Source: Liolophura sinensis
Taxonomy: Eukaryota > Mollusca > Polyplacophora > Chitonida > Chitonidae
Assembly (NCBI RefSeq): GCF_032854445.1
Contig: NC_088302.1
Span: 36,710,191-36,774,190, forward strand
DNA length: 64,000 nt
Direction: 5' to 3'
Shown: positions 23,780 through 64,000 of the stretch, piece by piece
Numbering within the stretch: the stretch's first letter is position 1
Layout: each line of letters starts with the position of its first letter
Notes under the pieces: generated by a model
Seen by the model: the letters and a program-made list of their open reading frames with translations, nothing else
Told to the model about the DNA's origin: nothing
Databases searched by the model: none
Made by a program: the position numbers and the translations under genes

Positions 23780-24180
23780 GTAATGTCCATGAATTGTCTC
23801 AGAAAGCCATATACCAAACTTCAGTTCAGAATAACCAAAGTCCAAAGCAGGACAAACGCAGTTATAATTTTGCTGAAAGAGGCCGAAACATGAACATGAC
23901 CCGTAACTTGCAAAGTTAAAGCTCACCACCAAATTGGCTCAAATTGATTTTTGAAATAAAGTGCAAAAAGCTGTGAAAATCCAAAAACATGATAAAGTGG
24001 CCATAATTTGATGGGAAATGGACAAAAGATCTCAAAATTGAACTTGATCTGTAACCATGTACAGAGTTTCATTTCAATATGATGAACTGTTTTGAAAAAA
24101 ACAGTCTGGAAAATTTTTTCTGATGGACTGACTAACAGACAAAATGTGAACTTACAATCCCCTCTGGTAGCAGTAGGGGA
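23780..24180. repeat. Probable interspersed repeat
   Basis: The block ends with a GACTGACTAACAGACAAAATG-like run and then CCCCTCTGGTAGCAGTAGGGG plus an A-rich end. That layout is familiar from dispersed elements of mollusc genomes. The left boundary and family cannot be fixed from one copy. It lies just beyond exon 8 of GLYR1. Confidence 0.35.
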
Positions 24181-24200
24181 TAAAAAATAGAATAGCTTAC

Positions 24201-24485
24201 CTTGACTGGTGACCTGTTCCAGACCATGACCTCGTGCCCTGACAGCAGTAGATTCATCACCATCCCCTGACCCATGATGCCTAGCCCCAGGAAGCCTATC
24301 CTTAGCCGCGTGGGTACCATAGGTTTCCCTGGAGATGTAGACTGTAAGATGTCCTGCTCACACTGTGTACCTGAGGTGGACAATTCTGACGCGGCAGCTG
24401 CTGTGGCCGGCGAGATCTTGAGAGGGGAGCTCTTTGGTGAGGCAGCGACGTCCGGGTTAAAATTGGACAGTATGGGCGACACGTT
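24201..24485 (-). CDS. GLYR1: GLYR1 exon 8: linker end and NAD-type Rossmann start
   Basis: It has an acceptor TTTCAG and a donor AAG|GTAAGC, 95 codons, phase 0 to 0. A Ser/Pro-rich linker precedes RLRIGFLGLGIMGQG, the first strand and glycine loop of the Rossmann fold, and HEVMVWNRSP. The frame continues past the donor only to a stop at 24,132, so without splicing the domain would be a stub. Confidence 0.88.
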
Positions 24486-27400
24486 CTGAAACAGTGAAAA
24501 TAGCGGGCTTCAAGATGTTGTTCCCGTTCTGGAAAAATCACATAACATAGAAATCAACAATAACAGGTGTAGGTTGTGTCGTGTTTCCTCCCAGCATAAT
24601 TCTGGCCGCCATTGCCTAAGTTAAATATTCTTGAGTACAGCATAAAACACTAATCAAATAAATAAATAAATAAATAGGTTGCATTACTGTCGTAAACAAA
24701 TTGAAATCTGCAATAGCAGCAATATCCAGCATAAAGTCGATGTAGCCATTCATTCAAACCCTTTAAGGTCAAACCAAAAGACAGAAAGCTAGTCCAAGTT
24801 AAAAGATATGTCCATAATTTGACCAGTAGACCAAGAGTGAATTCTAGAGCTGCTTGCCATAACAATAAATGTACTGAAATTTATCTGCATTTCCACTCAC
24901 ATCTACTCTACATGGAATATTTTTGAACTTTATTTGTAAGTTTAAATTTTTAACTTATAGGAAATCCCAAAATGGATCAATGTACATTTTCATAATTCAA
25001 ATGTTGGAAGCATAAATCACTTCGAAAATTAACAGGATTTGTAAAAGATTAAATAATTTCAACACTGGCATTATCATCTAAACCCCCTGAAGCCCTAGCA
25101 CATCAGAGTGATAGCAGGAATTCATATTGTACATCATTAGTGGAGTGATAACAGTATGGATTTGAAGGTCTTCACACATAATTTATACACGTCAATCTGA
25201 AGGAATGAAACTGTCCCCACTCAAGACTTTCTTATTTGAGATACACATTCTGCTTGAAGTCAGAGCAATGACCTGTCTGGCAATGAGAGACCCAACTTAC
25301 TGGTTTTCCATGCTTGTAAAATCTAAGCTGTTAGCATTTCCATCCTGGCGAAGGAGCAATGACTTACTGATAAACATATTAATTTATTTATTTCATTCAC
25401 GTTTAACACTATACTCAAGAATTTTCCAACTGTAAGACAGCCTTCAGGTTTATGGGCAAAAGAAATCAAAGTGGCCAGACTAAAGCCCTGACCCCTTTAG
25501 GTATACACGAAGCATTAATTTATGGAAGGCCACCCTAATTACATGTATAACAAATATGACTTGTACAAGTGAGTTCACATATGGAGCTTCTTAACTGGAC
25601 CTGGGACTTGTGGTACCCCATCTTACTGTGTGTTCTATATTCCTGGCCTTGGGTTTGGGGGAGTCCTTGGCTACTGTTGCCTCGGGGGGTGAGGCCTTTG
25701 AAGGTGACACTCTGGAAGGGGAGGCGGGCATCTTCACCGTTATTTGGCTTTCTTCGTCTGCTGTGACCGTGAAGGAGGAGATAACACTCTTTTTATGGCA
25801 GCTTTTTTTTTCTCTGCCTGTTCATCTGTGTTCTGAAAACAAAATGAAAAATCTTGCAATGTAAAAATCAACACCAAAAGCAAAATTTCAACCACGTGAA
25901 GCTTGTCAGTATGTCCACTGTGCCACAGAAAATTTAGATACAGGGTGGGATATGAAACAAAGGAAATTAGGGAGACAAGGTTGCACATTAAAAAAAAAAA
26001 AAAAAGCTCACCCCATAAAACACTTAATTAAAACTGGGAATTACACCAAAGAGCAAAAAGAAAAAGAAAGGAAATGGTACGTTCCAACACCACAAACCTT
26101 TAACTTCAATTGCCTGACATCCTCTTCATAGTTACTGATTGATTGAGATAGTGCAAAAGACTGGTGCCAGACAGAGGTTAATAAATATATAAGGTTATAA
26201 AGGAATGGAATGGGAACCATAACATGTGCTGCTTTTGTGCACAAATGCCGTGTACAAATACTCATTCTTTTCTATAAAAGCGAGAGCCGAGTTTTCCTGG
26301 GAAGGGTCGTATATGTAGAAAATTTTAACACATCTGTTCCATGTTAATACCATGTTAAAATATCAGCATCCAAAATTCAACTCACGAGCAGTTGGCGATG
26401 ACATGTGCTTTGTATCAATTGACTTTGAGCATTTACCTGCTTTGGAGATAACAAAGTCTTCTTAACTGGGATTTCTTTGGGCTTGGATTTGGGGAGAAGA
26501 GCAGCCTGAAAATACATCACAGCAACGTATTACAGGGCAGACTAGGGTATGAAGAAGCACTACTAGCCATCGATTCAGGCTCCATGCTGTGGGAGAGAGG
26601 AGGCAGGGCATGCACCAATGAACTAGGGTAACTAAGATAGGTTTGTACGACTTATACCTCTTTTGCTACAAGTTGATGGGAGGGAGCATGAAGATTCAGT
26701 GAAGGTCCACATGTCCGTTCACTGATTGTGTTCACAAATGATTCTGTGTATTCAGTGTAGTCGAACAGGTGAGTTCGTTTATTCAGTATTGGCTAACAGT
26801 TGATTTTGTTTATTCAGTATAGGTTCACAGATAATTCTGTTTATTCAGTGTTTGTTTACAGATCACTTGATAAAGTCTGTTTATGTACACAGGTCATTTC
26901 ACTCATTCGGTGTAGGCTCACACATGATCTTGCTTTTTTAAGGATTGACCATAATATTTTTTAGGTTTATTGGGGGATAAACAAAACATCTGCCGTGCAA
27001 ATTGTACGGATCTGCATAATGGTTCATTCATTGTCTGCCTGGCATCATTGAAAACTGATGACCGCTTCTCCCGTGTGTTACCGGCTTTATTTCTTATTTG
27101 TATAATTTCTTACATACCTTTGTCTTTGGGAGTTAGTGTTAAACGTTGTTTTGGAAATGGATCTTGCGATTATCGACTTGGAACGCCTTTTACGGACTAT
27201 GAATGGTATATGAAATGACGGACTTGACGCTTATATATACAAAAGCCTGCACAGCAGTTTCTTCGATATACCCCAATAAACCTAAAAATAGTACAGCCAA
27301 TACTTGTAATTTAATTTAAGGCATAAAAAAATGTCATCTTATGTTTTACTTCATTCCTAACTGTGAGAAATGTTAGTCGACTGTGTTGAGGCACGAAACA

Positions 27401-30400
27401 CCACAGGCTCTTAAATACACATTTTATGAATGAGATTTTTCGGGCCAGTGAAATTGTTGATCAAAGTTTTACCGTTACTAAGCAACATCATTGGCGAACA
27501 AAACCACGAGGAAAAAGAACTGCGAATAACTTAACATTTAGACAGTGAAATCTAAGAGAAGTTTAGGCACAGAAGATGTAGAAGGAGTTGAATTTATTTT
27601 GTGAGATGAATTTCCTAGGTGACAAGACGTTTGCCCTGTGAAAAAAAGGACTGTTGTTGTTGTTGCATGCTGGGGCTATACAGTAGTGTGTACACAGGTG
27701 ACTTTGCAATGCCGCTTGTGAAATATGGAAAATATCTCACTATCTAAATCTTACTGAATATCTAAGGACTTTAAACATCAGTTGGAAAGTGATTTTCGTC
27801 AAACTGGCTTGTTTTGGCAATGTCATTCGCACTCAGCTCTGCACAGCATGCGCCCCACTGACTCATGAGGACTGTCCGTGTCAGTGTTCTATTTGTCATT
27901 TTACGTGACGTGCCTTCCGTCTTTTTCAGTTTTCTTAGAAAAGGTAGTCCCGCATGGGAGTGGCTTCATTTTTTTCTGTTTATTGGAGTATAAACCCAAA
28001 AATCGGATTAAGCCTTACAGGGGTAAAGTCAGGAAAATTAAACTATTCAGGTTTATAAGGCTGACACATTGCTTTGTTGATTCACATTATTTTGTTGATT
28101 CAGAGTCGGTTCAATGCTCATTCTGTTGACTTATAGTAGGTTCACATGTCATTTTGATTCAGTGTTAAGCTGAACATCATTTTGTTCAATGGATGGCAAG
28201 CCACAGCTTCGCTCAACACATGAAAACGAAATTCAAGACATCCACACTTAATAGATGAAGTTATCTGAAGGACCGTACTGAACTGTACCATGAACATTTT
28301 TCGGTCACACTTTCTTAGAATTTTACACCAGGGCTGAAACGCATTTTAAAACCAGTGTCCTCGGTATACATATGTCAGGGATGAGACAGACACTAGGACG
28401 AAAAAAAGGATATACAGCACAACAATAATTTTGTCATTTTTAACATTTCTGAATTAAATTCTGATGCATTTTTCTTTATAAATAGAGGAATTCCTCCAAA
28501 AAGAGGACAAATCTCATGCCTGATATGTAACAATGTCAAGAGCAACAAGTAATTCCTTATGTGCTAGCTAAGGATTGTTCCAACAGAAGAATTCCTTATG
28601 TGCTAAGGATTGTTCCAACAGAAGAATTCCTTATGTGCTAACTAAAGATTGTTCCAACAGAAGAATTCAACCATACGGTGATCTGACTGGAGGAGATGTG
28701 TGTTCAAACAATGTGTCAAATCTGCCGAGTTGGCAATGTCCCCCACCTTAGACATCAGATCTGTTGCTTTTTGTAGAAAGTTTGAAATTATTTTCGCTAT
28801 TAGTATATAGCAATTCCCTCACTGAATATTATGTGTGACTGTTCAGAGAAGTTAATTTGAGCACAGTGCCATGAAGATCAAACACACATGCACACAACTT
28901 TTTTCGTTCAGGTTATAAATATGCGCCACGTGTGCTGAATTTACAATTTATTCCCCTCCTTGGATGCTGTGTATTTTGAAAATGAAGAGGGTAAAATTGG
29001 GCCTGCACAAAGAGGTTACCAAGACATGGGCACAAATAATAAATATTAGTTGAATCTGTTGAATTTACAGTTTTCAACTCCTTGGATGTTGTGTCCCAAT
29101 GTTTGACAAGGGATGGAGCACAGGACTATGGTTAAATGTACAGAAAGTTTGAAACTGATTTGCCCTGTGGATTGAAAGTAAAACTAGATTTTAATACAGA
29201 AGTTCCCAAACACACCAAGCTGAAAAATCTTACATACACTGTATCTATGTTGGTGTTATGATAAAAAATAAGAACCAAACCTTAAAACATGATAAAAGCC
29301 TGTTTACAAGTGTTATGCAAACCTCCCCCCAAAAAACAAGCAAAGAAACACATAAAATAAACATATAACCATGGAGTTTCGGGACACATGCAAGTATGAC
29401 AGGTGATTAAGCATTAATGCAACAGAAAAAATGTATGAACAAGCCACTGTTAGACAATCTATGCTTATCTATGGAGAAAAGAGTGTTACTGAATATATAA
29501 TCTATTTGTTCTCCATTTATTGACAAGAACACTGACTAATGAACACAAGTGACATTTAAAACCTTTAGTAGAATTCAAACACTGTTCTAACTCAGGATAT
29601 TAAAAGATTTACTTAGAACTGCCCATGCAGAAAGTTAAAAAGATTAAATCAGTAAAGTACCATACCACAAAGGTCAATGTACACATGCATGAACACATGA
29701 ACACATACCCACCTCGTATTCACCTTAACACAACTACATCTCTACAACAAGGCAGTGGGGCTGTGAGGAGATGGACTAGGAGAATTCTTACCTTTGGAGT
29801 GATCTTGGAGGAGGCCAGGGAGCCTGATGATAATGAGAAGGAGAGTTCTCACCTTTGGGGTGAACTATCTGACCCTCGTAGAGGCAAAGGTGGCCTGATC
29901 ATGAGGAGAGGGACAGCAGGATTTCTCACCTTTGGGGTGACCTTTTTTGACCCTGGTGGAGGTGGAGAGGACTGACCATGAGGAGAGGGACTGGGAAAGT
30001 TCTCATGTTTGGGGTGATCTTTCTGACCCTGGTGGAGGTTCGACAGTCTGGTGATGAGAGACAGTGGGGGATTTTTCACCTTTGGGGTGACCTTTCTGAC
30101 CCTCGTGGAGGTTGGGCAGTCTGGTGATGAGAGACTGGGGGATTTTTCACCTTTGGGGTGACCTTTCTGACCCTGGTGGAAGCGGGACAGCCTGATGAGG
30201 AAGAGAGGGACTGGGGGAGTTCTCACCTTAGAGGTGACCTTTCTGACTCTGGTGGAGGTGGGACAGCTTGATGACAAGGGGAGGAAATAGGAAAGTTCTC
30301 ACCTTTTAGGTTACCTATCTGACCCTCATGGCGGCAGGGTGGCCTAATCATGAGGAGAAAAAGTGAAGTTCTCACCTTTGGGGTGACCTTTCCCCCCCCT

Positions 30401-33400
30401 GGTGTAGGTGGGGTGGCCCGATCATGAGGGGAGGAAACACGAAAGTTTTCATTTTTGAGGTTACCTATCTAACCCTCGCAGAAGAAAGGTAGTCTGCTGA
30501 TGAAGAGAGGGAATAGGAGAGTTCTCATCTTTGGGAGAACTTTCTTACTCTGTTGGAGGCAGGGCAGCCTGATGATAAGGAGAGGAAGTAGTTCTCACCT
30601 TTGGAGTGACGTTTCTAACCCTGGTGGAGGTGCTGCAGCCTGACGTTGAGGAGAGGGATAGAAGAAGTGTTCACCTTTGGGGGTGACGTTTCTGACCCCA
30701 GTGGAGTCAGGGCAGCCTAATGATGAGGAGAGGGACAGGAGGCATTTTCAACCTGGGGTGACTTATCTGACTCAAGTGGAGGCGGGGCAGTCTGACGATG
30801 AGGAGAGGGACAGGGGAAGTTCTCACCTCTGAAGGTGACCTTTCTGATCCCAGTGGAAGTGGGGCAGCCTATTTATTATTGAGGAGAGGGACCAGGGGAG
30901 TTCTCACCTTTGGGGTAACCTTTCTGACCCTGGTGGAAGCAGGGCGGCCTGAAGATGATGTGGTTGATGAAGAAGACTCACTAACATCTGTTCCATTCTG
31001 TACAGCCAGTAAGGCTTTCTTGGTCTTAGGGAAGCTGGGCTTGGAATTCTACACCACACAGAAAAACAACACAAAATAATAATACTGGTACATAGCAAAT
31101 AGACCATGCAAATCAGCCAAATAACTATGTAAGCTGTAACAGCTAAGTCAATTTTCTGACTACTCCTGATATTGATTTCTCAACTTTTTGTACTTAAACA
31201 AATATCATTACTATTAAATGGCTTATACAGAACTGCCACACAATGAAACTCCTAAAGATGTTCAGGACAGTTTTGGGCTACGAAACAAATGGCAGGCAAT
31301 TTTGTTGCGCTCTTACTGACTGGTTTTATCGACAATTCTGGCTAGCCTCAAAGCCGTCACATTTTATAAAAGTGATACTTGTATTACTTGTAGTACATGT
31401 AGATTCATGGTTTAAGCCAGTTTTATTTATACCAAAACTGACACAAATAAACTACCAGTATCGTTTTTCTCACGAACAATCATTTGCACCACTGAAACTA
31501 CTGAAAGCATGATAAGGAAAAATGACTTCAATTCTGAAATGTTAACATTCCCAGAACGTTAACTAAAGACAGGTATTCCAACATTTCAAATAGTGTCTGT
31601 ACGTCTCTAGAATTAGACTAGTGAAGAGAAATCTATGAAATGTTGCATGGGGTTAGATTTACTTAATTGATTGGTGTTTTATGCCGTACTTAAGAATATT
31701 TCATTTATATGACGGCTGTGGCCATCCACGGGGTTAGACCCAATGTTTTAAAAGGTCAGGGTGTTTATTATTATTATTATTCAAAGAACAAGTGGAACTA
31801 ATTAATTTGTTAATGAGCTATGTTAGAACATACATATAAATGAACAACATCAACTATACATTATGTACATAATGTAAATCTATCAAATAACAGTATATGG
31901 CCTAGTCTTAACACACACATGTAGCATACATAGCTGTATACGTCTGGTTAATACAAACTGGAGCAGGTAGAATACAGTTGAACTTTCAGAAAGTGTCATC
32001 AATCCATTTTTGGTGTAACTTACTTTCACAGCCATTGTCTACACTGCATGGTGACAAGGATTTATGAGGTAAGTTACATACAAAATGCATTTACAAAGCT
32101 TTATGAAAATAGTTGCTGGATGAGAAGACAGCTATAGAATGTAGAGGAAAAGCTCACAACCAGCCCAGCCGTGGAGAGTGAAGGCAGCAAATAAAAGAGT
32201 TAGCGCGACTGGCTTCAGCATTTTCATATTTCAATTTATCCAAGAAAACCTTACATGCAAGTCTTGGCTCAAATGAACAAATTCTGCTGAAGCTGGGCTT
32301 TAAAGACCACAATAATTATCCATTGCTGGGCAAGCCACAACAGATCTTTGTTTCCAGAAATATTCAAACTAAATAGTTCAGTTATGATGCAGATGGAATT
32401 ATGGGTTAACGTCCATCTGCTGTCAGAGACATCCATCATGGGTTTTGATGGTGCTGTCAGGGATGAATCATTTCTGTCAATATCTACAAGATTGAAACTA
32501 AAACTACTTGGCCATTCTCAAAATGATCCTTTTCCACATGTTGTCCAGGATCACATGCTTTTCCTATCACAGATGCAATGTGCACGTATGCCCTATTGCA
32601 CAAGCAATACGTTGTGCCCAGTCGCTGTATCAGATGCAATGTGTGATGTGTGATGTATTCGATTGACTGTCGATTTAATTTGTTATGCCTTCATGTACTG
32701 TCATTTTATGATGCTGTTCAAGAACAGTTTCTCATTTCAGATAAGCCTTGGATGTTATAACTAGACTAGTAGCTGGCCAATACCATACCCTTTTCTCTTG
32801 TCAGCCAACCTTTGACTGTTACAACAAGACTAGCAGCTGCAGTTTGGTGCTCCTGGCCAACATGAGACCCTTTTCTCTTTTCAGCCAACCTTTGAGTGTT
32901 ACAACTAGACTAGCAGCTGCAGTTTGATGCTCCTGGCCAACATGATACCCTTTTCTCTTTTCAGCCAACCTCTGACTGTTACAACTAGACTAGCAGCTGC
33001 AGTTTGGTGCTCCTGGCCAACATGAGACCCTTTTCTAATTTCAGCCAACCTTTGAGTGTTACTACTAGACTGGCAGCTGTAGTTTGGCGCACTGGCCAAC
33101 ACCAGACCCTTTTCTAATTTCAGCCAACCTTTGAGTGTTACAACTAGACTAGCAGCTGCAGTTCGGCGCTCTGGCCAACACGAGACCCTTTTCTCATTTC
33201 AGCCAACCTTTGAGTGTTACTACTAGACTGGCAGCTGTAGTTTGGTGCTCCTAGCCAGCACGATACCCTTTTTTATTTTTCAGCCAATCTTTGACATTAT
33301 GACTAGACTATCACGTGTGCATGTGGTCCTGTCCAAAACCATACCCTTTTCTCATTTCAGCCAAGCTTTAAATGTTATGACTAGACTAGTAGTATTACAG

Positions 33401-57683: not shown

Positions 57684-60600
57684 GTGAGAGTATGAGATGA
57701 CTTGGTTATGCTTGGGGAATCGTACTTATTAATTTATTTGATTGGTATTTTGCACCATATTCAAGAATACATGTATTTCACTCAAACGACGGCAGCCAGC
57801 ATTGTGGTGGAAGGAAGCCAAACTGAGCCTGGGGATACACACGACTATCCGCAGGCTGCTGACAGACCTTCCCATGTACGACTGGTGAGGCTGGACTTGA
57901 ACTCACAGCCTCCGCATTGGTGAAGGGCCTCTGGGTCATTGTGCCATGCTAGCACACTAATCACTTGGCCACATAAGCCTCCATAGGAAATTTGTATTTT
58001 ATGTTTAATTCCAGTGCATTTTTATGTGAGGATTATCCAATAATTATTTATGGGAATTTGTATTTTATGTGTAATTCCAGTGCATTTTTATGTGAGGATT
58101 ATCCAATAATTATTTATGGGAATTTGTATTTTATGTGTAATTCCAGTGCATTTTTATGTGAGGATTATCCAATAATTATTTATGGGAATTTGTATTTTAT
58201 GTGTAATTCCAGTGCATTTTTATGTGAGGATTATCCAGCAGTTATTTATGGGAATTTGTATTTTATGTGTAATTCCAGTGCTCTTTTATGAGAAGTATTT
58301 ATTTAGTTTTATGAAGAGACACAGATGTGAATCTGACTACATTTGCATATTTGGTTTGAAAAGAGATGACAAATTGACAAATATGTATACCTTATATCAT
58401 GGTCATCTGAATCTGTAAATTAAGGCTGTGTTATGTTTCCTCAATTTATTCTGTTCTAACAACTCATAACATCACAAGTTGCATATGTCTAGGCGTGCTA
58501 CAATGGCAGTCATTCCCTCATTGATGAAGGTCGCTCTATTCATGACCGAAATAAATCCCTTACAAGAATTCAATTCTTTTACAGCAAAAAGAATCTTTCT
58601 CCTAGTTTGAATTTTCATGAGATGACTTTCTTTGGCATTGTAAGACCTTCTCATTGGCCCTTAAATGGCTGGCAGCTCATGAATATAATGAGCAAAGACT
58701 TTGTACTCTTACAAGTCCTTTATGGTGTATGCACTAAAGCATAACACTGACACTTCAGTGTGGCGTGTACATTTGTGATATCTCCTCCGATAATGAAGAA
58801 ACCGATCCATTTTTCAGTCAAAACCTGTGACATCAGTTCTTGTGAGTAATAGGTTGTAGATCTAGTGAAGTGTAGAAGAAGTTTCTTTCTTTACTTTACC
58901 TCACACGACATGTAAAGTTTTTATGCTACTCGTAGTTTCACGCTCTGTCTTTCCTGTATTACTTTCCATGTTTTCAGAGAACTTTCTGGATTCTTCGCAT
59001 TCTGATAAAGATTTCTCTGGAATTCTTTATGAACTGACAGATAGGAAGCCTTTCCAATCCTAAATACTTATAAACAGTTTATAGATGTAATTTTCAGTTA
59101 CTTCAGTTGTGAGTAGAGAACTAACCAACATATACTGTGTAGTATTTCTGTTGGTGCATGGTAGATCTATACATATATTTTCTCGTAGTTAACAAACCTA
59201 ATGAGTAATAGCCTTTATTTCATACAATATTATTTCTCTCGACATTCATGAAAACATTGTCTTTATGTTACTTGTATTTACTTATTTGGGTGATTTGTGT
59301 TTTATGCTGTACTGAAGATAATTTCACTTATATATCGACGGAAACCCTTTGAATATTTGCAAATTGCTGGCAGACCTTCCCACTTGCAGCCAGAGAGAAA
59401 GTCAGCATTTATGGACTTGAACTCACATCATCTACATTGGTGAGAGGCTCCTGAGCGCCTCATCACTTGGCTACACAAGCCCCCATAGTCTTAATATTAC
59501 GCTGTATGAAGTTTTGGCATTAAAGAGCAATCAGACAAATAATGAAATGTATCAACCATATGGACCATTCACACATGTATATATTATAACATCTATAATA
59601 GTATAAGGTCTTAAAGTTAAAAGAAAATGAGAGAATATAAGCATTTAGTTCCTGTGTCACAAAGTGGCAGAATGTTTTATGAGATGAATGCGCATCCGTA
59701 CGTTAAACATTTGTTGAAACATTTGTTGAAACATTTCATGTTATAAATACTGCATCTGGCATCGTAGTTCAGATGTCAGCTATCACTCAAGGTGTAGTTC
59801 TCAGCACGGCCAATTTTTCATAGATTAATGAGCTCTCTTGAGTCTCATCGTCCCAGGTCGGGCTGTGATCTTAGAGATGGAAGCTGTATCAGATACATGG
59901 CAAAGGGCACTGCTTGTTGTTGTCACTCCAGGTTAATCCACCATTAATACTCGTTGTGTGGTTGAAAGATTCTTCAGTATGCCATTACAAATCAATTTTA
60001 AATGAATTGATCAGTCAATCAGCTGGTATGAGATATTTTCAGTTTCAGTTTGTCACTGTGTTGACAGATGCTTTGTTAACAGTGGCATCAGTATTACTTG
60101 TTAAGTGTTTCTCTGTTAGCTAATCACAAGAATCACAAATCACCAGGTTGTTTTAATGTACATGTACAGTCAGAGTGATGTTATGGAATCAAGGAAAATA
60201 TTAGAAACTTCTTATACATGTTTAAGGCTTTCCCATGACATACATTTGATGTTTTTTTTTTTTTAATGTTTCAGAATGCAACTTTCTCACTTGATGGTGG
60301 ATTTTCTCCAGATGCAAAGAATGTAAGATTTAAATAAAAGTTAAAATTAAAACCAAAAAAAACTTAAAGAAAAAAACTATAAACGGAAAAACATACAAGT
60401 TTGGAAGTAAAGAAATGCTGTTGAAAAGGTAACGCTGTGTAAAGATGTTGGACATCTGTCATCTTACTTTATGTCTACGAGGTACGAAGATAAATGTTTG
60501 ACACACTGTGTATATGCGATGAAGAAGCATTGTCTATTTGAAAGCCAATAGTTTGTTTCCGTACAGCTTTCGTTTGTTACGTTTCACATCTAGTTTTAAG

Positions 60601-63503
60601 AAATAAGGAGATATCCCAAAGAATGTGTATGTGTGTGTATGCATGATGAGTAATTGCTTTCACTTTCAGTTTGACATATTCAATGGAAAGGTTGAGCCAT
60701 ATGTAAAACGTGCTTTAGAGGGTTACAATGTGGCTGTCCTGGCCTTTGGAGCTGTGAGTATTTCTGGACTTCAGACATGTTATACCAATAATGAGAACAA
60801 AAATGTACTGTAAAAAGTAAAGTGTGTGGCCAGTGATTGCTAACCTCAAGTGAATAATACTCTGACACCCTGGCTGCTGTAGTGTATTTGCTCTATTTGC
60901 TTGTGATAGTGACATTCTGGAGATATTGTGGATATTTAACTCTGACTGAGATTGTTGGCTGTGAGTGTTGATAGTATTGATGTTGCTGGTACTTTTGATC
61001 TCTGAATGTGTTCATTTTATCTGTAGACAGGAGCTGGGAAGAGCTACTTGATGTCAGGAATTGAGGATGACCCAGGCGTTGTACCATGTGTGAGTTATCT
61101 CCCCTGATCCACCATATTTGCTACAGGGGTGATGGCCTCCAAATGCCTATTGATTTTTCATGAGCGACCCTGTTAACGATCAGTGCTGTAAATCAGCCCA
61201 AACATTCTGTGACCAATAAGCATTGCTGCCTACCTTGCCCGGCCTGTGAGAAAACAGCCATGAAAATCTTGAAATAGGTTGATCATTAAAATGTAGACTT
61301 TCCTATGCCGTCAGCTGGGAGGGTACCTAGCAATGTCAAGGGGACGCATCACACGGCACCTTCACAACCTGACATTGGGTCCTCTCGCCAAGAGATTCAA
61401 TCTTATTTAATAAAACTCATACCTGCCCAAAATTTAGACAAGATCTATTATTGTCATTCCAAGCATTAATCTGTACACTCAAAATGACCAGCAGGCAGTG
61501 CAAAAAGAATTTATACCGTCCAGAATTACATTCCCCCCCACACAAAAAACGGAAGTTGTAATAGGGTACTGTTTCCTATTCTGAACTGACCGCCTCTGTT
61601 TTAGGGGTTATCTCCCCTGATCCCTACTGTCTGCAGCAGAGGCTATCTCCCCTGATCTCCACTGTATTTTCCAGATGGAGTCTCAACTATCCCAGTTTAC
61701 ATTTCAGTCACACCACTTGGATCAGCTTCAGTCTGTGACAGACATTTTAATTGTAAATGTACCAATATTATTATTGGTTAAACAGAGAGAGACTTTGTTT
61801 GATCTAATTATTCAGCTATGTATCCCATACAAAGAAAATGTGTGCACAAAATTACAGAAATAATTGAGATTCTTTCATTAGATAAATTTTCACCTGATGG
61901 AGACACTTTATAAATGTCATACATGTATTAAATTTAAAAAAAGTTTTATCATCAATGTTTATTTTTCATTCATTTACATGAATTGGTTTTTTTGGTTTGT
62001 TTCATCAATTCAGTTGAACAGAAGTCTGTTCAAACATATTGGCGAAAAGTCTGGAAAGGAGTTTTTTGTGACTGTCTCTTATGTTGAGGTATGTGCTTCT
62101 CATTAGTCAGTAACTGATGTGTGTTAAAGTATGGTTCCACATGGTCAGATGCTGAATATCCTTACCAATTGTATTATTCTTTACTTCAGGATTCACAGAT
62201 TAAAATGTACACATATAGTCTAATTTTTGTATCATTTCAGCAGTTAAAAATATGTTAGATCTCTTGCACCATGTTGTTTTAAAACTTATATTATATATTT
62301 TTATATTAATTATTTGATACTGGTGGATATTTCAAGTCATACTCCGGATAATTTCACTTGTAGAGTAAAGTGGGGTTCGCCTACCATAAAGCCGTGGTGT
62401 TTAAGTGTTTCCACCGTGATATATAGGTGGAAATGCCCCTGAGTACAGAGTAAAAGACTAATAAGTAAATAAATAAATATCTGGTAAAGGTCAGGTTCAT
62501 GGTTTGTTAAAACCAGGCAAAGCCAACGCTATATTAGGCCACACAGCTAGTAAGGACTTTCCCATCATGCTGTTGTGGCTGATCATTCGGACTTGTATTA
62601 CTTTTTTGTCGTTTTCAGATCTTAGATGAGGAAATGACAGACTTGCTGAACCCTCATACCCGGCCCATGAAGATCCGTCAGCACCCCCATAAGGGCATGT
62701 ATGTACTTACACTCCATGCCCCTGGGGCGAAATCTATAAAGCAGTTTCTGACTTAAGTCAGAACTGAAGATCTTGTCACAATGCTCAGCTTTTAGTGCTG
62801 GAAATTTTGATACACTCATGTTAAGATAACATATATGAGGAGGCCAAAAATTTTAACTTACTGGGCTCAAGAATTAGTTTTAAAATCATATTTTAAATTT
62901 TGGCTTAAGTCAGAAATGGCTTCACCCGGGGGCCGGAATCACAAAGCAATCTTAGACTTAGGTCAAAATTTCAAGTCACTTTAAAATGTAGCAATTTCTT
63001 ATGTAACAGTGTCAAAATATTTCTTGACAACGTAAATTCTGGGTAAGGTATTGTAAAACAAATTTCAGCTAAAATAGCAAAAAGGAAAATACCAATACTC
63101 CAAGTCTGACTTAAGTGTAAAACAAATCTTGAGATCTATTAATTGTCACTTTGATTTTCATGATGTTTTCCTTATCTGCCTTATTATATACAGAATCGGT
63201 TCTTTGCTCGTCAGATTTAAAACAAAAAGGTTTAGTTGTTTTGACTAGTGATTTATGTTCTTTCTTTAGATTTCGCCTGAAGAAAACAAACTTTGTCACC
63301 ATGAAACATTTGATGAAGTGTAACAAAATACTCGTTTCTCATTTAAACTGATCATTGTTACAAATTTGTTTCCCCTCTGTCAGATATGTGGATGGCCTGT
63401 CAGAGTTGGTGGTCAAAAACTTGGAGGAACTGGAAAGGCTGTATGAGCAGGGCAACCGAGCCAAGACAGGAGGTGCCACAGATGTCAGGGCACACAGAGA
63501 AAG
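57555..63503 (+). CDS. Kinesin motor domain, seven exons, incomplete at both ends
   Basis: Exons 57,555-57,683, 60,275-60,322, 60,670-60,753, 61,027-61,089, 62,014-62,088, 62,619-62,698 and 63,384-63,503 are phase-matched. They read HIKVVARVRPL, FDIFNGKVEPYVKRALEGYN, the P-loop GATGAGKSYLMSG, DDPGVVPC, FFVTVSYVEILDEEMTDLLN and YVDGLSELVV. This is the first half of a kinesin motor, a microtubule ATPase. The P-loop has Ser where most kinesins have Thr, and Ala instead of Gln before TGAGK. The start of switch I reads DVRAHRE instead of the usual NxxSSR pattern. The start codon exon and everything after 63,503 are not identified. The YVEILDEEMTDLLNP and HPHKGIYVDGL segments recall kinesin-3, but I do not assign a family. 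Confidence 0.9.
57725..57985 (-). mobile_element. Full-length but diverged SINE
   Basis: Tail, body and tRNA-like head (on the minus strand TGTGGCCAAGTGATTAG, then GAGTTCAAGTCCAG) are all present, with small indels. It lies in the first visible intron of the kinesin gene. Confidence 0.75.
57986..58290. repeat. Minisatellite, about 4.6 copies of 66 bp
   Basis: GGGAATTTGTATTTTATGTG recurs at 58,052, 58,118, 58,184 and 58,250, exactly 66 bp apart. The period is a multiple of three, so a long open frame results, but the content is non-coding in character. It directly adjoins the SINE at 57,725-57,985. Confidence 0.9.
59272..59488 (-). mobile_element. Diverged SINE with internal deletion
   Basis: Tail (GTGTTTTATGCTGTACT), body (TTGCTGGCAGACCTTCCCAC) and head (GGACTTGAACTCACATC) are recognisable; the GGCCAGCATTATGG segment has been lost. 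Confidence 0.7.
60275..60322 (+). CDS. Kinesin exon: 16 codons
   Basis: Acceptor GTTTCAG, donor AAT|GTAAGA. It encodes NATFSLDGGFSPDAKN, the position of the usual FxFDxVF segment, here diverged. Confidence 0.82.
60670..60753 (+). CDS. Kinesin exon: helix before the P-loop
   Basis: It encodes FDIFNGKVEPYVKRALEGYN and then VAVLAFGA, leading into the P-loop. Acceptor TTTCAG, donor GCT|GTGAGT. Confidence 0.9.
61027..61089 (+). CDS. Kinesin exon: Walker A
   Basis: It encodes TGAGKSYLMSG, then IEDDPGVVPC. Joined to the previous exon it gives GATGAGKS, a valid nucleotide-binding P-loop ending in Ser. Acceptor TGTAG, donor TGT|GTGAGT. Confidence 0.9.
62014..62088 (+). CDS. Kinesin exon: central strand
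   Basis: It encodes LNRSLFKHIGEKSGKEF, then FVTVSYVE, the classic VxxSYxEIY strand of kinesins. Acceptor TTCAG, donor GAG|GTATGT. Confidence 0.9.
62300..62480. mobile_element. Heavily eroded SINE pieces
   Basis: On the minus-strand sense, TTGATACTGGTGGATATTTC and ATACTCCGGATAATTTCACT match the SINE tail. A second, oppositely oriented tail (AGTAAATAAATAAATAT) follows. The arrangement suggests two old insertions. Confidence 0.45.
62619..62698 (+). CDS. Kinesin exon: loop after the central strand
   Basis: It encodes ILDEEMTDLLNPHTRPMKI, then RQHPHKG and part of an Ile codon. Acceptor TTTTCAG, donor AT|GTATGT. Confidence 0.9.
63384..63503 (+). CDS. Kinesin exon: switch I approach
   Basis: It encodes YVDGLSELVVKNLEELERLY, then EQGNRAKTGGATDVRAHRE, and ends AAAG|GTGAGT in phase 2. 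Its last 68 nt are the source of the 79-bp array that follows. Confidence 0.88.
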
Positions 63504-64000
63504 GTGAGTCAGACAGGCTGTATGGGCAGAGGAACTGAGCCAAGACAGGAGGTGCCACAGATGTCAGGGCACACAGGGAAAGGTGAGTTAGACAGGCTGT
63601 ATGAGCAAGGGAAGCGAGCCAAGACGGGGGATGCCACAGATGTCAGGGCACACAGGGAAAGGTGAGTCAGACAGGCTGTATGAGCACGGGAACCGAGCCA
63701 AGACAGGGGGTGCCACAGATGTAAGGGCACACAGGGAAAGGTGAGTCAGACAGGCTGTGCAAGCAGGGGAACCGAGCCAAGACAGGAGGTGCCACAGATG
63801 GCCAGGCACACAAGCAAAGGTGAGTCAGACAGGCTGTGCGAGCAGGGGAACCGAGCTAAGACAGGCGGTGCCACAGATGTCAAGACACACAGGGAAAGGT
63901 GAGTCAGACAGGCTGTGTGAGCAGGGGAACCGAGCCAAGACAGGAGGTGCCACAGATGCCAGGGCACACAGGGAAAGGTGAGTCAGACACGCTGTGTGAG
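63436..64000 (+). repeat. 79-bp tandem array made of kinesin exon end plus splice donor
   Basis: After the true exon the sequence repeats a unit of 68 nt of exon (from AGGCTGTATGAGCAG to CACACAGGGAAAG) plus 11 nt of intron (GTGAGTCAGAC). Donor GT positions fall at 63,504, 63,583, 63,662, 63,741, 63,820, 63,899 and 63,978, exactly 79 bp apart. All seven keep AAAG|GTGAGT. The array runs off the right edge. Because 79 is not a multiple of three, including extra copies in mRNA would shift the frame. Confidence 0.95.

Follow-up and report, generated by a model that had tools for sequence, protein, structure and literature searches.

The DNA analysed here (the window) is a stretch of 64,000 nucleotides from the chiton Liolophura sinensis (NCBI RefSeq assembly GCF_032854445.1, contig NC_088302.1, positions 36,710,191 to 36,774,190 of the forward strand). 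Six predicted exons of a kinesin gene lie near its right-hand end. The 3' end of the sixth, together with the 5' splice site (donor) that follows it, is repeated in a 79-bp tandem array that continues past the edge of the window. The features are listed in Table 1. The underlying assembly (scaffold_4, GCA_032854445.1) is described, in the available part of the genome report, as made from HiFi reads at 14x with a mean length of 8,347 bp (PMC11068029). It was first published as Liolophura japonica, and the species name was later corrected to L. sinensis (PMC12441733).

Table 1. Kinesin exons and donor arrays, with positions counted from the first letter of the window
Feature	Position	Strand	Basis
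Kinesin motor exon, 120 nt, ends at donor 1, encodes (I)YVDGLSELVVKNLEELERLYEQGNRAKTGGATDVRAHRER	63384..63503	+	Junction translation and exon prediction
Unit 1 of the array, 68 nt genuine exon end and 11 nt intron start	63436..63514	+	TRF, unit alignment
Donor 1 (GTGAGT), alone among the ten in preserving the kinesin frame	63504..63509	+	Junction translation
Units 2 to part of 8, intronic, six further AAAG/GTGAGT donors	63515..64000	+	TRF, junction translation
Upstream kinesin exon (predicted)	60275..60322	+	
Upstream kinesin exon (predicted)	60670..60753	+	
Upstream kinesin exon (predicted), P-loop TGAGKS	61027..61089	+	
Upstream kinesin exon (predicted)	62014..62088	+	
Kinesin exon preceding the array exon (predicted)	62619..62698	+	
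Seventh kinesin exon (predicted), past the window	window-equivalent 64401-64495 (L003:1491-1585)	+	
Second donor array, 76-bp unit, 14.8 copies, 72% matches	29843..30958	-	TRF

The array at the kinesin exon end

Tandem Repeats Finder (TRF) places the array at 63436-64000, with 7.2 copies, 90% matches, 0% indels and a score of 906. Outside the window it extends to about window-equivalent position 64280, for a total of 10.7 copies and 845 bp (L003:526-1370), and its end is ragged. The array contains ten donors, with the GT at 63504 + 79n (n = 0-9), and all nine spacings are exactly 79. Seven are located in the window (63504, 63583, 63662, 63741, 63820, 63899 and 63978), each with the sequence AAAG/GTGAGT (the slash marks the splice site), and three lie past it (window-equivalent 64057, 64136 and 64215). 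GTGAGT follows AAAG in all ten full units; unit 9 has one extra G there, and its -1/+1 nt pair leaves the 79-bp spacing unchanged. Alignment of the units divides each into 68 nt of exon and 11 nt of intron. The original prediction had described seven donors of this sequence exactly 79 bp apart, the 68 + 11 nt unit, many equivalent donors and a continuation beyond the window, and all of this was borne out, the same GTGAGT core being present in all ten units. In a whole-genome DNA search, which scores the best candidates only, the 79-bp array was found at one locus.

The exon in front of the array matches PF00225 on its own only below the Pfam cut-off (profile positions 161-201, E 0.0025). The seven joined exons (six of them in the window) are in frame and match profile positions 41-233 with E 1.1e-48 and 166.3 bits, the cut-off being 29.3, which agrees with the earlier assignment of the repeated exon end to a kinesin. 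When donor 1 is spliced to the acceptor at 64401 the junction reads ...RAHRER/AHSIFTITVEQ..., and the motor domain is continuous over the seven joined exons. Donors 2-10, joined to the same acceptor, all stop at the same TGA, directly after RAHRER (residue 41); the codon across donor 1 is followed by this TGA (AG/G TGA), and each later donor lengthens the exon by 79 nt. That any later donor breaks the protein had been foreseen correctly. The exception then allowed, a rescue of the frame by three retained units, fails because all nine later donors stop right after the donor 1 codon. To judge by the translated junctions, the cell must use donor 1 in this kinesin gene.

The ten full units are 84-96% identical in pairs (mean 89%), and no two are identical. 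Unit 1 is not an outlier: it is 86-95% identical to units 2-10 and departs from the majority at three sites. The incomplete unit 11 is the most divergent (78-87%). Heterozygosity of the L. sinensis genome is given as 1.24% in the available part of the genome report (PMC11068029), and the divergence of the units is several times this value. Because the units are only 84-96% alike and include no identical pair, the kinesin array appears not to be very recent. Of the suggestion of recent growth or conversion, recent growth is therefore poorly supported, while some copying of blocks is visible among the units (units 6 and 9 are 96% identical, units 5 and 9 94%). Changes in units 2-10 are spread almost evenly over the codon positions (14/20/18), and the reading frame is interrupted by a stop in unit 2 and shifted in unit 9, so the extra units are evidently not kept as coding sequence. 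A 13-nt GTGAGTCAGACAG 'intron', with units of 66 nt (22 codons), is open on paper and was rejected on account of the same stop and frame shift; in addition, we know of no animal intron nearly as short as 13 nt.

The switch I motif of kinesins is NxxSSRSH. The alignment gives DVRAHRERAHS for this region versus NMNEESSRSHA in KIF13B, and the motif is not found, which points to a divergent member of the kinesins. The P-loop GATGAGKS (61027-61089) is kept while switch I is altered. With switch I altered, ATPase cycling may be weak or lost.

Donor arrays in the rest of the genome

The genome was scanned for triplets, i.e., a motif present three times at a set spacing; the counts are of overlapping matches and not of arrays. 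At spacings of 60-90 bp the donor consensus MAGGTRAGT gave 2182 triplets versus 360 for the reversed motif, at 69-71 bp 155 versus 29, and at 91-120 bp 1243 versus 281. As single motifs, MAGGTRAGT and its reverse occur 33,494 and 24,251 times. Per 100 single motifs there are 6.51 triplets for the donor, 1.48 for the reversed motif, 2.66 for a rotated motif (a control that can overlap real donors) and 1.82 for the rotated and reversed motif. Per occurrence, the donor exceeds these three composition-matched controls 4.4, 2.4 and 3.6 times. The effect is smaller for the acceptor motif TTTYCAGG, with 698 triplets per 67,198 motifs versus 157 per 29,741 (about 2.0-fold). Approximately 100 matches listed from the 60-90 bp scan represent 16 arrays, and by rough extrapolation the genome may hold a few hundred arrays at this spacing.

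The position of such arrays relative to exons was examined in 31 donor arrays, the kinesin array excluded: 15 from the 69-71 bp list and 16 from the start of scaffold C1, one of which is also in the 69-71 bp list. The control sample comprised 21 reversed-motif arrays, C3:9749517 being left out as a neighbour of C3:9731536. C1:4275879 and C1:4277191 were counted as one array, and L024 was taken about 1 kb upstream of the listed match and anchored on GGTRAGT. Open reading frames (ORFs) ending exactly at the donor of the 5'-most copy were translated and compared with Pfam (E <= 0.01). An ORF of at least 30 amino acids was found at 20 of the 31 donor loci and 8 of the 21 control loci. When the control ORFs were ended before the TGA of the motif itself, two more of at least 30 amino acids were obtained, one of them in a new locus; neither had a Pfam match. 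The longest ORF has a median of 38 in the 31 donor loci and 25 in the 21 control loci, the latter ended before the TGA (one-sided Mann-Whitney p 0.006).

Pfam matches were obtained at 10/31 donor loci (seven above the Pfam cut-off) and, with or without the added ORFs, at 1/21 control loci (Fisher p = 0.034). The ten are GH31, MCM OB, TPR, Vps18, DUF4537, Fe-hydrogenase large subunit, ankyrin, antistasin, SUFU and SNF2, and in eight of them the match ends no more than two residues from the donor. The single control match (L041) is a VWC exon that exceeds the cut-off, and the array there itself carries CAG/GTGAGT. A second control, L057 (C3:24973741-24974541), is an 88-bp array with CTG/GTGAGT in 12/12 places printed; it has no Pfam match, resembles a transporter exon by eye, and is likely a mirage (the name used in amphioxus for a repeat at a splice boundary, see below) within the control set. 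The control set is thus partly contaminated by mirages, since L041 and L057 both carry GTGAGT donors. Searches of the PDB with single ORFs matched MCM6 (E 8.9e-15), TTC7B (E 1.8e-11) and Fe-hydrogenases (E 6.5e-7). The ORF of L019, by eye nucleoprotein TPR, had no match in the PDB, and L015, by eye an ArfGAP, matched there only with E 0.0081; neither was counted. An ncbifam search with two exon peptides gave no match.

Four of the genes were followed past the array. Beyond it, the GH31 match continues at profile positions 247-293 after 201-245, the SUFU match at 83-135 after 40-80, and in the Fe-hydrogenase-like gene the small-subunit domain follows the large-subunit domain. As the next piece of the same protein lies past the array, the array in these three genes is placed, on the profile matches, in the intron right behind the true exon end, and use of the 5'-most donor makes sense. 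From motif scan and sampled exon test together, the kinesin array is seen as one of many such arrays at exon ends in this genome.

Of 12 arrays examined, two stay open on read-through past donor 1 over 200-237 bases: L006 (39-bp steps) and L024 (81-bp step). L006 (C1:26353473) belongs to the GH31 gene and L024 (C1:1309524) to the antistasin-domain gene, and both steps are multiples of 3. Later donors could in these two cases add protein repeats in frame. Two slightly different copies of the GH31 exon that follows the array seem to exist (L061:286-564 and L061:489-707), suggesting an exon duplication. The donors of the L017 array are mostly 26 bp apart.

Origin of the arrays and comparison with known repeats

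The kinesin array is very probably a mirage-type minisatellite that has grown by tandem duplication over the exon end, with donor 1 used by virtue of its position. A tandem duplication of about 79 bp would once have spanned the 3' end of the exon and its 5' splice site, and the array would then have grown to ten units. Growth would be nearly free of cost, since each added copy falls inside the intron and leaves the original exon, with its first donor, unmoved on the 5' side. All ten donors share the GTGAGT core, and donor 1 must therefore win by position; under exon definition it would be favoured by lying closest to the upstream acceptor, and it is also transcribed before the others. RNA spliced at a later donor would stop early and might be open to nonsense-mediated decay. 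A wider proposal, that minisatellites in this genome arise preferentially at 5' splice sites, beyond the effect of gene density, is put forward as speculation and is rather unlikely to hold. As each copy lands in the intron, the process would run as a one-way ratchet and leave perhaps hundreds of genes with arrays of near-identical donors. Under this proposal, the sequence of the donor, R-loops, or conflicts between transcription and replication at exon ends might seed tandem duplications, and arrays such as L006 and L024 could be drawn on for isoforms that differ in the number of in-frame repeats.

The abundance of donor arrays could also be due to ordinary minisatellites that happen to touch exons, with donors found in arrays only through arrays being common in or near genes. 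This explanation concerns the cause of the abundance and not the anatomy of the array, and is possible though doubtful. Tandem repeats of all kinds are abundant, the reversed motif still reaches 360 triplet matches, and acceptor motifs are in excess as well. The looser motif GGTRAGT (60-90 bp) gave 7363 triplets versus 5858 when read backwards, an excess of only 1.26-fold. The explanation by ordinary minisatellites is weakened by the excess of donors over all three control motifs, which are matched in composition but not in gene density. Several further observations weigh against the picture of numerous exon-end arrays. A few large arrays (e.g., C1:5471572-5475216) have a heavy influence on counts of overlapping matches. 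The sample of 31 is not random, with 16/31 within the first 5.5 Mb of one scaffold, and 11/31 have no ORF of 30 amino acids at the first donor and may be plain repeats. Fisher p becomes 0.12 when only matches above the Pfam cut-off are taken (7/31 versus 1/21), and 0.09 when the exon-like control L057 is counted (10/31 versus 2/21). In the SNF2 gene (L059), the fourth of the four followed, the three ORFs beyond the array that were searched gave no match. In the kinesin gene itself, the use of donor 1 is deduced from frame and homology.

Selection for repeated donors, as alternative splice sites or as a platform that recruits U1 snRNP (small nuclear ribonucleoprotein), is improbable. In its favour, the donor core AAAGGTGAGT is free of substitutions in all ten units, despite a mean of about 6.7% change per site over the array (53 changes/790 sites), and L006 and L024 are open on read-through. 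However, the TGCCACAGATG block (unit columns 39-49), which contains no splice signal, is equally invariant, and three of the 79 circular 10-nt windows of the unit are without change. Conservation of the donors was consequently rejected as proof of function; with TGCCACAGATG just as invariant, the unchanged AAAGGTGAGT is no sign of selection on the donors. The immediate stop given by kinesin donors 2-10 also argues against such a function, as does the second donor array of the window, where donors are not generally kept: six AAAGGTRAG donors stand inside about 15 units, with one more (29791) just past them, a state to be expected if this array is older and its spare donors are decaying. An artefact of assembly, for which tandem repeats are a classic occasion, is very improbable, and no observation here points to one. 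The 9,900 bases that cover the array and its continuation contain no Ns and the ten full units all differ from one another, which argues against a collapsed or copied artefact, and HiFi reads of the mean length given above span 845 bp easily.

A mirage-type minisatellite remains the preferred reading of the kinesin array. Mirages were named in amphioxus for repeats at splice boundaries, with donor-side and acceptor-side cases and with length and somatic instability, as described in the available parts of the reports (PMC3087553, PMC3902484). The same sources list Adh3, the globins BflGb6/BflGb9 and troponin C as mirage genes, and similar repeats in PGBD5 (PMC3087553, PMC3902484). Data on Adh3, together with reverse transcription PCR of globins, are said there to suggest that mirages leave regular splicing undisturbed (PMC3087553). 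As far as these sources describe them, amphioxus mirages share with the chiton array a tandem repeat over an exon-intron boundary, many of whose units carry AG/GT splice signals. The kinesin repeat is of a size within the range of tens to approximately 160 bp and spans the exon-intron boundary, its ten full units all carry the splice signal, and the genuine boundary is retained at one end of the repeat, with the gene intact and donor 1 joining in frame. Mirages are further marked by concerted evolution within the cluster that leaves out its edges; in the kinesin array the last unit is the most divergent, but the first is no outlier. The host differs, being a chiton (Mollusca) and not a cephalochordate, and many genes are involved here, with abundance measured against control motifs. 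The founding paper on mirages is reportedly that of Canestro 2002. Length polymorphism, somatic instability and splicing are reported for amphioxus in the sources available, whereas the chiton array is known from the sequence of one assembly alone.

Other known systems are less similar. Minisatellites with units of about 30 bp can sit at exon-intron boundaries in human segmental-duplication genes, as the chiton array does (PMC2812944). The authors argue, in the part of the paper available, that such repeats bring cryptic splice sites into use and give rise to new introns (PMC2812944). These variable internal tandem repeats are found in recent primate duplicates, and that part has no description of identical donors arrayed behind an exon that is conserved (PMC2812944). 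Intron gain from duplicated AG/GT proto-splice sites likewise creates extra splice sites, according to the available text of the reports (PMC3087553; potato RdRp, PMC4974935). In the chiton, however, the intron pre-exists and the copies add donors, no new intron being seen. The metallothionein genes of earthworms provide another case of intronic tandem repeats in a spiralian gene, but these lie inside intron 1 and are not described, in the available part of the source, as repeating a splice site (PMC12783039). No report of donor arrays in molluscs, or of genome-wide abundance of such arrays, was found in the searches made, which covered open-licence papers. Within the literature searched, neither the molluscan host nor the abundance seems to have a precedent; the kind itself, the mirage named mainly from lancelets, is known.

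Arrays of identical donors are natural experiments on splice-site choice: with the core constant, the spliceosome must decide between equal sites by position and context. If they are as common in this mollusc as the scan suggests, mirages are no oddity of lancelets but follow generally from tandem duplication at the edges of exons. Donor arrays provide material from which new introns, exons and isoforms can arise, and gene prediction is likely to be led astray by them.

Further arrays and minor observations

The second donor array reaches the donor (GT 30907) of a predicted exon on the minus strand (30908-31048), for which no Pfam match was obtained. An ORF at 24132-24509, about 6 kb downstream of this array and on the same strand, matches PF03446 (E 1.1e-8) and is presumably GLYR1-like. 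An 80-bp array with 7.8 copies lies at 32773-33389 and has CTTTTCTCATTTCAG-like acceptor sequence on the plus strand; no exon was recognised there by eye, and no search was made. Another array is found further on in the kinesin gene (L003:7776-8437), with 52-bp units, CACCAG/GTAAATG donors and acceptor-like CCTGCAG pieces, and the predicted exon before it ends in ...REIQERVLLLQKDKDQ/. Elsewhere in the assembly, contig C99 (108,685 bp) has seven COX1 matches about 15.5 kb apart and is probably a concatemer in which the assembler joined copies of the mitochondrial genome head to tail.

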